Below the pieces are notes generated by a model. That model was not told the DNA's origin. It was given only the letters and a program-made list of their open reading frames with translations, and searched no databases. 64,000 nucleotides of DNA, taken from NCBI RefSeq assembly GCF_019880225.1, contig NZ_CP082284.1, positions 1,736,001 to 1,800,000 of the forward strand, in the 5' to 3' direction. Positions within the stretch are counted from its first letter, which is position 1, and every line of letters starts with the position of its first letter. Both the position numbers and the translations under genes were made by a program. This DNA comes from Halobaculum rubrum. Lineage in GTDB: Archaea > Halobacteriota > Halobacteria > Halobacteriales > Haloferacaceae. This document shows positions 28,002 to 31,867 of this stretch, piece by piece.

Positions 28002-28086
28002 GCGAGGGTGGCTGAGCTTGGCCAAAGGCGGCGGACTTAAGATCCGCTCCCTCAGGGGTTCGAGGGTTCAAATCCCTTCCCTCGCA
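28002..28086 (+). tRNA. tRNA-Leu (anticodon UAA)
   Basis: 85 nt, a class II tRNA with a long variable arm. Acceptor strands GCGAGGG (28002-28008) and CCCTCGC (28079-28085) pair perfectly, with discriminator A at 28086. The anticodon arm is GCGGA-CTTAAGA-TCCGC, which gives TAA at 28038-28040. The T loop is TTCAAAT. CCA is not encoded. No intron is present. Confidence 0.97.
28065..28086 (+). repeat. tRNA-Leu 3' end, att-like copy 1
   Basis: The last 22 nt of the tRNA (GGTTCAAATCCC through CCTCGCA) recur identically at 28172-28193. The T-loop-to-acceptor part of tRNA genes is the usual attachment site for archaeal integrases. Confidence 0.7.
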
Positions 28087-28171: not shown

Positions 28172-28193
28172 GGTTCAAATCCCTTCCCTCGCA
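28172..28193 (+). repeat. tRNA-Leu 3' end, att-like copy 2
   Basis: An exact 22-bp direct repeat of the tRNA 3' end, 107 bp downstream of copy 1. No integrase frame lies between the copies or nearby, so this may be the scar of an excised or decayed element. Confidence 0.7.
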
Positions 28194-28583: not shown

Positions 28584-28905
28584 CTACCTGCACTGACGGT
28601 CGCGGTGGTGAGCCGACAGCCCTCGAGCGCGACACCGGTTCGCAGTCACACAGCGGCCGCTCGAAGGTGTGAAACGTGGGAGGAACGCGCGCCGGTGAAA
28701 AGAGCGGCGCGCGTTCCGCCCTGAATTGGTCCCCGCTGACGCTTCGGCCCTCCAGACGAAGCGTCACCTGGGTCAAGCAGGTGCGAGTACTTAACCATGT
28801 TGGCGACGGCTGTACCGTCCCTAACCGAAAGCGGTGAGCGTGCGGCGCGTACGCCCCAGCGCCGACGGCCTCGATCGTTTCTCCCAGCGTACGATCCAAT
28901 TCAGC
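28584..28905. other. Non-coding stretch with clustered inverted repeats
   Basis: No credible gene is present. The middle part (28682-28783) is the hairpin cluster listed separately. TACTTAACC at 28789-28797 reads on the opposite strand as GGTTAAGTA, a plausible TATA box pointing leftward into the hairpins. Confidence 0.5.
28682..28783 (-). ncRNA. Candidate structured RNA: three consecutive hairpins
   Basis: Three perfect stems stand almost end to end. They are 12 bp (GGAACGCGCGCC with GGCGCGCGTTCC, 28682-28717), 10 bp (TGACGCTTCG with CGAAGCGTCA, 28737-28766) and 6 bp (CACCTG with CAGGTG, 28765-28783). That is much more structure than a terminator needs. A TATA-like sequence on the minus strand just to the right favours leftward transcription; the strand remains a guess. 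The sequence does not contain motifs of SRP RNA or RNase P RNA that I can recognise. Confidence 0.35.
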
Positions 28906-30258
28906 TCACTGCCGTGCGGGATGTGACGGGGCGAGCCGTGACCCGCCGCCGAGGAGTCGTTCGCGGAGGGTCTCTCCCGCCGTCGGCTCCGCGAGGAGAT
29001 CTCGCGCGCGCAGCTCCGGCACGAGGAGATCGACCACGTCGTCGAGGCTCCCGGTGCGAAGCACCTCCTTCACGTTGAACCCGTCGACGCCCACCTCCTC
29101 GTGCCAGTACTGCAGTTCGTCGGTCACCTGTTCGGGCGTGCCGACCACGACCGGGGAAGTGGTTCCGAGGCCGGAGAACTGCGCGACCTCGCGGACGGTC
29201 CACTCCCGATCCGGGTCGGACTTGGTAAAGGCGTTCATCGTCCCCTGGATCGCGTCGGTCTCGATGTGCTCGATCCGCTGATCCGGATCGAGCTCGGAGA
29301 GGTCCATGTCGAGGAAGCCCGACAACAGCGCGAGCGTCGCCTCCACGTCGACGGTCTCCAGCAGGCGCTCGTACTTCGCTTCGGCGGCCTCCTCCGTCTC
29401 GGCGACGACCGGCACGACCCCCGGGAAGAACGCGAGGTCGTCGGGATCCCTGCCGAGGTCGGCGGCCCGCTCGCGCAGGTCGTCCATGTACTCACGGACG
29501 CCGTGCTCGGTGGGCTGCGAGCAGAACACCGCCTCGGCGTTGGCGGCGGCGAAGTCGCGTCCGCGGTCGGAGGAGCCCGCTTGGAAGATCACCGGCGAAC
29601 GCTGCGGCGACGGCTCGCAGCCGTGCGGGCCGGGCACGTCGAAGAACTCTCCCTCGTGGTCGATCTCGTGGACCTTCGCCGGGTCGCTGAAGACGCCCGA
29701 CTCCCGGTCGCGGACGACGGCGTCGTCCTCCCACGAGTCCTCCCATAGCGCGTAGCAGACGTTCATGAACTCGTCGGCGCGGTCGTACCGTGTCCCCTTG
29801 TCCATGCGCTCGTCGAGGCCGAGGTTCGCCGCCGCCGACTCCAGATACGAGGTGACGACGTTGAACGCGACGCGGCCGTCGGTGAGGTGATCGAGCGTGG
29901 AGAACTCCCGCGCGAGCTGGTACGGGTGGGTGTAGGTGGTCGACTTCGTGACCGCGAACCCGAGCGAGTCGGTCACCTCGGCCATCGCGGGCACGAGGTA
30001 GCCGGGGTCGTTCGAGGGGGTCTGGACGGCGTGCTCGATGGCCGTCTCGCGGTCGCCGCCGTACACGTCGTAGATGCCGCGCACGTCGGCGAAGAAGACT
30101 GCCGCGAAGCCGCCCCGTTCGGCGGTTCTCGCTACGTCGGTCCAGTACTCCCTGTCTTTGTACTCGCCGGAGCGGTCCGCCGGGTGGGTCCACGACCCGG
30201 GGGAGACGTGCTCCACGGAGTTCATCGTGAAGAGGTTGAGATGGATGCCGTCGCTCAT
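28906..30258 (-). CDS. LLM-class FMN-dependent monooxygenase (NtaA/SnaA/DmoA family)
   Basis: 450 aa from the ATG at 30258. The bacterial-luciferase-like barrel has LNLFTMNSVEHVSPGSWTHP at the start, FAAVFFADVRGIYDVYGG, the family signature FNVVTSYLESAAANLG, and SPVIFQAGSSDRGRDFAA for FMN phosphate binding. Relatives oxidise nitrilotriacetate, EDTA, dibenzothiophene sulfone or dimethyl sulfide with FMNH2 from a separate reductase. Which compound is used here is unknown, and no flavin reductase is adjacent. GTTTACCACC about 30 nt upstream may be the TATA box. Confidence 0.9.
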   Translation of the reverse strand: MSDGIHLNLFTMNSVEHVSPGSWTHPADRSGEYKDREYWTDVARTAERGGFAAVFFADVRGIYDVYGGDRETAIEHAVQTPSNDPGYLVPAMAEVTDSLGFAVTKSTTYTHPYQLAREFSTLDHLTDGRVAFNVVTSYLESAAANLGLDERMDKGTRYDRADEFMNVCYALWEDSWEDDAVVRDRESGVFSDPAKVHEIDHEGEFFDVPGPHGCEPSPQRSPVIFQAGSSDRGRDFAAANAEAVFCSQPTEHGVREYMDDLRERAADLGRDPDDLAFFPGVVPVVAETEEAAEAKYERLLETVDVEATLALLSGFLDMDLSELDPDQRIEHIETDAIQGTMNAFTKSDPDREWTVREVAQFSGLGTTSPVVVGTPEQVTDELQYWHEEVGVDGFNVKEVLRTGSLDDVVDLLVPELRARDLLAEPTAGETLRERLLGGGSRLAPSHPARQ

Positions 30259-30844
30259 TGATCTGCGTGTGTGGTCGTGGGGTGGTAAACGGGGTGGAGT
30301 CGGCCGAGTGTGCCTGTATTCGGATCGTTCAGTGGTGGTGGGGGTCTGGTCGTTGTTGTTGTGGGTGTGGTATAGCGGATGGTCCAGCAGTGGATACGAC
30401 CGCGAAAGCACCCTTTCAGTCCCGCCCACCGCAACCGCGACCTCACCCTCCCCAGCCGACTCACTCAGGCTTCGGAAGACTCGCTTCGCTCGTCTTCCGT
30501 GTTCTCGTTCGCTCCGCTCACGAGAACTTCGCCCTCGTTCGTCCCTCGCACGCGTCCGGCGGACACGGAGGTCCGCCGGCGCGCGCCACCACGTTTCGCG
30601 CGCACCGGGCAAACGATCCCGATGCTCAGTCTGTCCGACCGCAGGTGGGACTGAAAGGGGCCGGGCGGCTGCGGGAAGGCGCGGCGGGCGCACCGACCGC
30701 AGCCGCTCGAGGGATTTCGCGGCCGCCACCACGCCTGTGGCCGCCGCTGTCCCGTTCTCTGCGAGGGATACGACGCATCCACAGAATCCGGCCGATCCGA
30801 CCGCGTGGGTCCGATTTATCACCCGCGGTCGCACATCTGCGTTC
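30259..30844. other. 586-bp divergent intergenic region with hairpins and an inverted 13-mer
   Basis: No gene is supported. Two adjacent stem-loops have related loops: GGAAGAC/GTCTTCC (30474-30498, loop TCGCTTCGCTC) and GTTCTCGT/ACGAGAAC (30501-30527, loop TCGCTCCGCTC). The 13-mer CCCTTTCAGTCCC (30411-30423) returns inverted as GGGACTGAAAGGG (30647-30659). Positions 30300-30390 are a G/T-rich run (GTTGTTGTTGTGGGTGTGG). GATTTATCAC at about 30816 is the likely TATA box of the next gene. Confidence 0.55.
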
Positions 30845-31867
30845 ATGTACGACCGCGTCGCTGTCCTCGCTCACGAGAAGTTTCCGGACCGCTCGAAGAC
30901 CGCCAACGGGATCATCCGCTACGCCGACTACGAGGTCGCCGGGGTCCTCGACCGCGACCGCGCCGGCGAGCACGTCGCCGATCACCTGCCGGACGTGCCC
31001 GATGCACCGATCGTCGAGTCGTTCGCCGACGTGCCCGGCGACGTGGACGCGCTGATCGTCGGAATCGCGCCCATCGGCGGCGGCTTCGACGAGTCGTGGC
31101 GTCCGGACGTGCGCGCGGCCATCGAGGCCGGCTGCGACGTGATATCGGGCCTTCACTACTTCCTCAACGACGACGACGAGTTCGCCGAACTCGCGGCCGA
31201 ACACGGCGTCGACCTCCGGGACGTCCGGAGGCCCCACGACGACCTCACCGTCGCAGGGGGACGCTCTGACGAGGTGAGCGCGGACGTGGTCCTGACCGTC
31301 GGGACCGACTGCTCGGTCGGCAAGATGACCGCGACGATGGAGATCGTCGAGGCCGCCCGCGAGGCCGGGATCGACGCCTGTGCGATCCCGACCGGCCAGA
31401 CCGGGATCATGATCGAGGGGTGGGGCAACCCCGTCGATCGCGTCGTCTCGGACTTCACCGCCGGCGCCGTCGAGGAGATGATCCTCGAGAAGGGCGACGA
31501 GCACGACTTGCTCGTCGTCGAGGGCCAGGGAAGCATCGTCCACCCCGCCTACTCGGCGGTCACCTGCGGCATCCTCCACGGCGCGATGGCCGACGAACTG
31601 GTTCTGTGTCACGCCGCCGGGCGCGAGGCGATCCACGGCTACGAGGACACTGCACTCCCGCCGATCGAGGAGTACGTCGACCTCTACGAGTCGCTTTCGG
31701 CGCCCGTCCACGAAAGCGAGGTCGTCGCCGGCGCGCTCAACACCGCCGACCTCGCGGACGATACCGCCGCCCGGGACGCGGTCGACGAGTTCGCCGACGC
31801 GATCGACGCGCCCGCGACGGACCTCATCCGGTTCGGCGCCGAGGCGGTCGTGGAGGCGATCCGATGA
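30845..31867 (+). CDS. dgcN: DUF1611 P-loop protein, probable D-glutamate N-acetyltransferase DgcN
   Basis: 340 aa. The N-terminal domain (KTANGIIRYADYEVAGVLDR) precedes a P-loop domain with VGTDCSVGKMTATMEI and IPTGQTGIMIEGWG, followed by LLVVEGQGSIVHPAYSAVT: the DUF1611 architecture. The family was characterised in marine bacteria as DgcN, which N-acetylates D-glutamate. The assignment rests on this family together with the dipeptide-epimerase-like gene that overlaps its stop codon by 4 nt (ATGA), the dgcN-dgcA arrangement. The substrate was not deduced from active-site residues. Confidence 0.75.
   Translation: MYDRVAVLAHEKFPDRSKTANGIIRYADYEVAGVLDRDRAGEHVADHLPDVPDAPIVESFADVPGDVDALIVGIAPIGGGFDESWRPDVRAAIEAGCDVISGLHYFLNDDDEFAELAAEHGVDLRDVRRPHDDLTVAGGRSDEVSADVVLTVGTDCSVGKMTATMEIVEAAREAGIDACAIPTGQTGIMIEGWGNPVDRVVSDFTAGAVEEMILEKGDEHDLLVVEGQGSIVHPAYSAVTCGILHGAMADELVLCHAAGREAIHGYEDTALPPIEEYVDLYESLSAPVHESEVVAGALNTADLADDTAARDAVDEFADAIDAPATDLIRFGAEAVVEAIR

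Follow-up and report, generated by a model that had tools for sequence, protein, structure and literature searches.

The structured unit at positions 28,671–28,768 of the window (the whole stretch of 64,000 nucleotides of Halobaculum rubrum DNA that was analysed) is almost certainly one RNA gene on the minus strand, with the two larger hairpins as its halves. The family to which it belongs is universal or nearly so in Halobacteria. The RNA gene is real on stronger grounds than in the preliminary description, which had named an unknown small RNA as one of its readings: the unit has its own promoter and terminator, is conserved throughout the class and is without an Rfam match. The transcript itself is inferred from comparative evidence, namely the conservation of the promoter, the two helices and the layout of the terminator. 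Its 5' end was placed by the spacing from the TATA box, and its 3' end by the hairpin and U tract. The features are as follows.

28,798–28,802, minus strand: BRE-like element 5' of the TATA box; here CAACA, without G
28,789–28,795, minus strand: TATA box, reading GTTAAGT where the family consensus has TTTAAGT; spacing to the core constant
28,671–28,768, minus strand: predicted RNA gene of about 97 nt (5' end at about 28,768–28,766, 3' end at about 28,671)
28,731–28,746 and 28,757–28,772: arms of hairpin 2, the 5' hairpin; 88% complementary
28,737–28,766, minus strand: 5' hairpin, stem UGACGCUUCG/CGAAGCGUCA of 10 bp, loop UCUGGAGGGC
28,728–28,754, minus strand: ultra-conserved 27-nt core TGGAGGGCCGAAGCGTCAGCGGGGACC
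28,722–28,736, minus strand: linker GCGGGGACCAAUUCA, joining the two hairpins; mostly unpaired in the centroid fold, with few pairs
28,678–28,694 and 28,705–28,721: arms of hairpin 1, the 3' hairpin; 94% complementary
28,678–28,721, minus strand: 3' hairpin, terminator-like, GC-rich, 16 pairs in the window copy
28,671–28,677, minus strand: short, U-containing tail ACGUUUC, directly 3' of the hairpin

Promoter and fold of the RNA gene

The promoter was analysed at 150 places, of which 140 are distinct (3 further places at locus ends were dropped), with +1 defined as the G of GACGC. Among the 140 distinct loci, positions −28 to −26 of the TATA box are T (98%), T (97%) and A (95%), and the BRE-like positions −36, −35 and −32 are C (95%), G (82%) and A (95%); the positions between the promoter elements and upstream of them are mostly variable. 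A TATA-like motif was found in 62 of the 79 genomes tested, and the promoter pattern is kept in loci with differing neighbours. The earlier observation of a TATA-like element that reads into the unit from the right was correct: it is GTTAAGT, at 28,795–28,789 on the minus strand, and the ACTTAA conserved on the plus strand to the right of the block is the minus-strand TTAAGT that points into it. The alignment of the best loci displays a near-constant block with a variable hairpin on its left.

Compared with shuffled sequences, folding of the unit gives z-scores of −6.3 on the plus strand and −5.1 on the minus strand, values equalled by none of 200 shuffles, and the fold energies rank 12 and 22 among 1278 stretches of the window. 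Since the window is GC-rich and these ranks are merely within the top 1–2%, structure alone is weak evidence; the decisive evidence is conservation. Two of the three consecutive hairpins described at the outset, the larger ones, are real, but the third, of 6 bp, is not conserved. It is present in the window sequence (CACCTG at 28,765–28,770 with CAGGTG at 28,778–28,783); however, its six Watson-Crick pairs occur in one of 168 distinct loci (six when G-U pairs are allowed), and it overlaps both the promoter spacer and the place where the RNA is predicted to begin. It was therefore taken as a chance pairing.

Distribution and helix variation in Halobacteria

The proposed search of haloarchaeal genomes with a covariance model (56 positions; match threshold E≤0.01, the E-values being rough) matched 387 of 391 Halobacteria genomes, including 375 of the 377 of high quality, and 83 of 86 genera. 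The window copy scores 81.7 bits at 28,767–28,712, a locus that belonged to the training set. Without the model, a raw 331-base sequence from the window matches 55 of 60 genomes, namely the window's own and those of its relatives. A phylum-wide draw of 392 genomes gave strong matches in 80 genomes of the class and weak ones in 14 outside it (best E 0.0048), the latter at about the level expected by chance for that many genomes. The 'Actinarchaeum' record was rejected as an outgroup, since the taxonomy places this name in Halocatena, inside Halobacteria. The genomes without a match are G043, G058 and G396 of family f9 and G045 of family f11; a higher-sensitivity search of these four, together with G036 and G052, did not find the RNA (best E 0.014, in G396). 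Plasmid records contain two matches, and the phage records searched contain none. The window's genome has a second copy at G000:C1:1880066–1880120, and two copies are found in all 15 Haloferax genomes.

The 27-nt core and the left arm GACGCTTCG are each exact in 79 of the 80 class genomes, a count that takes the best model match per genome, which favours the consensus, and that includes some loci on which the model was trained. Selecting copies by the exact 27-mer biases toward invariance, and the count by best match per genome removes most of that bias. After removal of near-duplicates, which reduced 148 loci to 61, the GCGGGGACC segment of the linker is present in all 61 rows of the alignment, as well as in 16 of 17 rows when divergent copies are included (the exception is L226); it is followed by AATTCAGGGCGG in 58 of the 80 class genomes. 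The loop of the 5' hairpin, with UGGAGGG within it, is CUUUGGAGGGC or similar in other members, and the tail is CUUUCCUUUUC or similar in many of them.

Compensatory changes, which had been suggested as a check, are found in both helices. In the 11 Halobaculum loci, five pairs of the 3' helix carry changes in both partners, a number reached in 0 of 500 shuffles, and pairing holds in 96% of cells; when the partners are slid, pairing over the whole structure falls from 97% to 31–44%. More widely, folding predicts a strong 3' hairpin for nearly all of the 61 dereplicated copies, with widely different arm sequences, the weakest being that of L147 at −16.4 kcal/mol. The 5' helix is constant at nine of its ten pairs in Halobaculum, and in the divergent copies two of its pairs (four cells) have changed on both sides; the count of cells was reached in 0 of 500 shuffles and that of pairs in 10 of 500. 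One of the five measures for the divergent 5' helix, 'further pair types', gave no excess over the shuffles (500 of 500). The predicted pairing of the 5' stem thus rests on two pairs in divergent copies, the main family being invariant. The divergent copies keep the loop UGGAGGG, and all except L226 keep CAGCGGGGACC.

Neighbouring genes, divergent copies and published sRNAs

Neighbouring genes were counted where 1.2 kb of sequence flanked each side, which holds for 149 of the 182 distinct loci. In 89 of them a PadR-family gene (PF03551) follows the RNA on its strand, with a median start at +421 nt, and in two it lies upstream. In 23 loci, the group to which the window belongs, an NtaA/DmoA-type FMN monooxygenase gene is found upstream, always on the same strand. 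The RNA has a C7 gene as neighbour in 19 loci and a TrkA gene in 17, and none of the genes looked for is beside it in nine. The ancestral locus probably adjoined a RosR-like PadR regulator gene; the window copy is a second copy, and its place beside the FMN monooxygenase gene is shared by Halobaculum, Halorubrum and some of their relatives. The unit, previously placed upstream of the monooxygenase stop codon, is in fact downstream (3') of it, as the gene is on the minus strand with its stop at 28,906. The monooxygenase frame itself (28,906–30,846, minus strand, 646 aa) is probably over-long; a Halorubrum relative begins with MSDHLHLNLFTM, which corresponds to MSDGIHLNLFTM inside the window frame. 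Also, 23 of the 149 loci have a gene for a small amphi-Trp protein on the opposite strand, downstream of the RNA.

The linked PadR protein resembles hsRosR (E 1.5e-24). Seven of eight RNA-bearing genomes tested (the exception is G064) have an orthologue that is 84–93% identical to the family consensus. A close orthologue was found in none of six RNA-less genomes, where the best match is at 45–54% identity (four genomes) or absent (two); two of these six have a completeness of 70–78%, and of the remaining four, three come from one family. These data point to co-inheritance of the RNA and PadR, in a sample that is small and not independent. G103 carries the RNA at C1:1044418 without a close PadR neighbour. 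In the window's genome, the PadR gene at G000:C1:1879133–1879405, by the second RNA copy, is 93% identical to the family consensus, and the orthologues in six other genomes are 84–90% identical to it; among haloarchaeal regulators these are high values. The idea that the RNA promoter contains a RosR operator was considered and rejected, as the motif TCGnCGACGAGnTCGnCGAC, given in the accessible text of its publication (PMC4287449), is unlike the promoter consensus.

Divergent, plasmid-type copies, with CCC after GGGGA, occur at six places in four of the 391 genomes, representing two genera. Two of these places are on the Halorubrum lacusprofundi plasmid pHLAC01 and another is on a Halohasta litorea contig (L115, identical with L240). 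Five weak model matches (L227–L231, E 1e-6 to 0.007) are unlikely members and were excluded from the alignment of divergent copies. In L241, L243 and L244, the last two being nearly identical regions from two species, a TRAM-domain gene (PF01938) begins at a distance of about 365 nt on the downstream side of the RNA; such a gene is located 1.9 kb upstream in L236 (identical with L242) and 3.2 kb upstream in L115; it is absent within the flanks of L239 (at most 1.5 kb). Stand-alone archaeal TRAM proteins are described as RNA chaperones in the accessible text of two papers (PMC5572242, PMC6705878), and the proximity of the gene is a clue to a protein partner rather than a demonstration of one. 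Overall, the divergent copies of Halorubrum lacusprofundi and Halohasta noted near TRAM-domain genes are L236, L237, L241, L243, L244 and L115, and both copies on pHLAC01 also adjoin an uncharacterised gene of about 325 aa.

The Haloferax volcanii sRNA hts10 (HVO_2213s) is quite probably a member of the RNA family, an assignment made by inferred position and not by sequence. The accessible part of its description (PMC3956466) places hts10 at 2078656–2078816 on the forward strand of the chromosome, on the basis of sequencing and prediction, reports its conservation in 18 other haloarchaeal genomes and lists a deletion mutant. Conservation across haloarchaea is thus common to hts10 (those 18 genomes) and the family (387 of 391); in that text, however, hts10 is one of 27 single sRNAs, and a class-wide family is not claimed. 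Relatives agree in position, strand and type of neighbour between hts10 and the second Haloferax copy. The chemoreceptor Htr36 is HVO_RS15355, according to the accessible text of PMC5892119. In three Haloferax genomes, the distance from the C copy to the A copy in the direction of transcription is 605, 732 and 626 kb (the last spans the origin, with the contig taken as circular), and the C copy adjoins a chemoreceptor (MCP) gene. The chemoreceptor beside the C copy fits Htr36, whose HVO number is an interpolated one. Interpolated from gene numbers, hts10 is about 660 kb from HVO_2908s, itself at about 2.74 Mb; since the C–A spacings match this interpolated distance, hts10 and HVO_2908s fit the Haloferax pair of copies. 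H225.2R was rejected as a Haloferax member, its spacing being worse than that of hts10 with HVO_2908s. HVO_2908s is an sRNA predicted in H. volcanii vesicles, and Halobacterium salinarum has a similar one (PMC10927574, accessible part); it is intergenic and conserved between the two genera. Its place would be plausible for the PadR-linked copy, the match to the family being purely by gene-number interpolation.

From conserved intergenic regions, Babski 2011 predicted 31 and 94 H. volcanii sRNAs, as stated in the accessible text of PMC3432209, and the RNA family may be among these candidates. Searches of the open-licence literature returned no account of the family as such; Heyer 2012 and Babski 2011, where it is likely to be listed, lie outside that scope. 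A literature search with the letters of the RNA itself returned a plant paper as its sole match. The accessible text of PMC7002113 reports 22 conserved Halobacteria ncRNAs without function, and in the accessible parts of PMC7002113, PMC12482152, PMC13286277 and PMC3432209 the RNA is neither named nor excluded. The sRNA genes of H. volcanii evolve fast, with 22 of 27 restricted to that species (PMC3956466, accessible part). The RNA family is a sharp exception, consistent with the few conserved sRNAs in the accessible text of that paper, and its core is conserved class-wide yet belongs to no Rfam family.

Possible function and alternative explanations

With slightly more confidence than doubt, we read the unit as a free-standing, non-coding minus-strand RNA gene whose product would act in trans as a regulatory or housekeeping RNA, its 5' module being read by a protein. 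In this preferred, unproven mechanism, an RNA of about 97 nt would be made from its own TATA promoter and end at its own hairpin terminator. The active part would be the 5' hairpin with the UGGAGGG loop, together with the adjoining GCGGGGACC strand, and a protein would recognise this module in an RNA–protein particle or with the RNA as a decoy; the PadR protein would be the best candidate for a transcriptional partner. A protein reader is favoured over one RNA target because both stem arms and both flanks keep their letters; a protein surface accounts more readily than a simple seed for the joint invariance of stem, loop and flank.

An RNA with a core so little changed across an archaeal class must have a job needed by nearly every member. 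A broader, speculative reading is that of a new lineage-wide class of housekeeping RNA, a counterpart of 6S and CsrB in role and not in descent, with one invariant GGA-loop hairpin, control to or from the co-inherited PadR and plasmid copies with TRAM partners. If so, the RNA would be a global regulator with that one hairpin at its centre, controlled by or controlling PadR, and the TRAM-domain RNA-chaperone genes that travel with it on plasmids may encode its partners. The covariance signature, the two copies in each Haloferax genome and the probable hts10 deletion strain make the function directly testable.

The main rival to reading by a protein is base pairing with C-rich mRNA sites. The RNA would then be an sRNA with the loop UGGAGGG and GCGGGGACC as seeds for sites, perhaps many, that read CCCUCCA or GGUCCCCGC. 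This alternative is possible, though we hold it with reserve: both segments are conserved and unpaired, and the order of 5' hairpin, single strand and terminator is the usual plan of an sRNA, but the stem arms vary no more than the loop does, beyond what seeds alone require, the PadR mRNA fails as a target by energy, and the targets considered, short of a genome-wide search, yielded no conserved one. As a cis target, the latter was rejected on complementarity to the RNA at 104 loci, where the mean z of +0.9 for the loop and −1.0 for the linker is not convincing. An RNA that binds the ribosome is improbable. Its loop GGAGG would pair with the anti-Shine-Dalgarno CCUCC at the 3' end of 16S rRNA, which is little used in haloarchaeal initiation, and the accessible text of PMC6104027 reports that H. 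volcanii does not use the Shine-Dalgarno mechanism. UGGAGG does form six of six pairs (−10.2 kcal/mol) with CCUCCA at the 16S end of the window's genome; however, in 20 other Halobacteria genomes (L245–L264) the 16S position that follows CCTCC is occupied by T in 12 cases and by A in 8, whereas the U of the RNA loop is constant (61 of 61), so that the pairing does not co-vary, and the G 3' of GGAGG is left unexplained. Pairing of the core with the rRNA operon was likewise rejected: the best run, of 13 nt, falls at position 220 of the 8-kb stretch examined, a long way upstream of where the rRNA genes begin, and is equalled by 5 of 100 shuffles, as expected by chance.

The remaining explanations dispense with a free-standing functional RNA. 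A palindromic protein-binding site in DNA, TGACGCTTCG...CGAAGCGTCA, is very unlikely; the palindrome is nearly invariant across the main family, but its arms change together in divergent copies, and a DNA site does not account for the one-sided conservation of loop and linker, the fixed spacing of the TATA box or the covarying terminator. It is highly improbable that the unit serves the monooxygenase mRNA as its 3' UTR or terminator, be it also a double-sided one shared with the small convergent gene. Where the monooxygenase gene is a neighbour, it precedes the RNA on its strand in all 23 loci, and the 3' hairpin is terminator-like, yet other copies adjoin unrelated genes (PadR, TrkA/MCP), the promoter sits between the stop codon and the RNA, and a terminator has no need of an invariant 5' module. 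The double-sided terminator of the preliminary description, and a double-sided intrinsic terminator in general, which would be variable in sequence and have U tracts on both sides, was rejected: only hairpin 1, with its variable sequence, covarying stem and U-containing tail, is terminator-like, and hairpin 2 with its adjoining strand is nearly invariant. A small protein gene is scarcely credible. Open frames exist on both strands (53 aa plus, 50 aa minus), but the loop (by 1–2 nt) and the hairpins vary in length by non-multiples of three, and a start codon 5' of the block is not conserved in relatives; because loop length varies by 1–2 nt between members, a shared reading frame is excluded.

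The housekeeping 6S, SRP and RNase P RNAs are near-universal in large clades and strongly conserved, and the present family is likewise clade-wide and conserved; it differs in being unmatched in Rfam and in being found in one class among the genomes searched. H/ACA guide RNAs, such as sR-h45, combine a hairpin that encloses a guide pocket with an ACA box on its 3' side; this class was rejected, as the 5' hairpin consists of ten continuous pairs without a pocket and GCGGGGACC comes next, without ACA. A C/D box sRNA, which would carry RUGAUGA and CUGA boxes, was also rejected, as RUGAUGA is absent from the window RNA and the consensus, and Rfam gives no C/D match for it. CsrB/RsmZ-type decoy RNAs of bacteria bind protein through GGA in exposed hairpin loops. 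The window RNA shares the exposed GGA loop, but has one conserved GGA hairpin where several are expected, and a CsrB-like decoy was rejected; CsrA is said to be absent from H. volcanii in the accessible text of PMC6104027.

At the gathering threshold, a search of the whole window against Rfam 15 matched only sR-tMet and tRNA, and at relaxed thresholds nothing overlaps the RNA except mir-9195, which scores 17.2 bits where the cut-off is 90.5. The sR-tMet match, a C/D-box RNA, is at 2,576–2,648 on the plus strand (67.7 bits). The last 22 bp of tRNA-Leu (GGTTCAAATCCCTTCCCTCGCA, 28,065–28,086) recur 107 bp downstream, at 28,172–28,193, an arrangement that resembles a mobile-element integration site.
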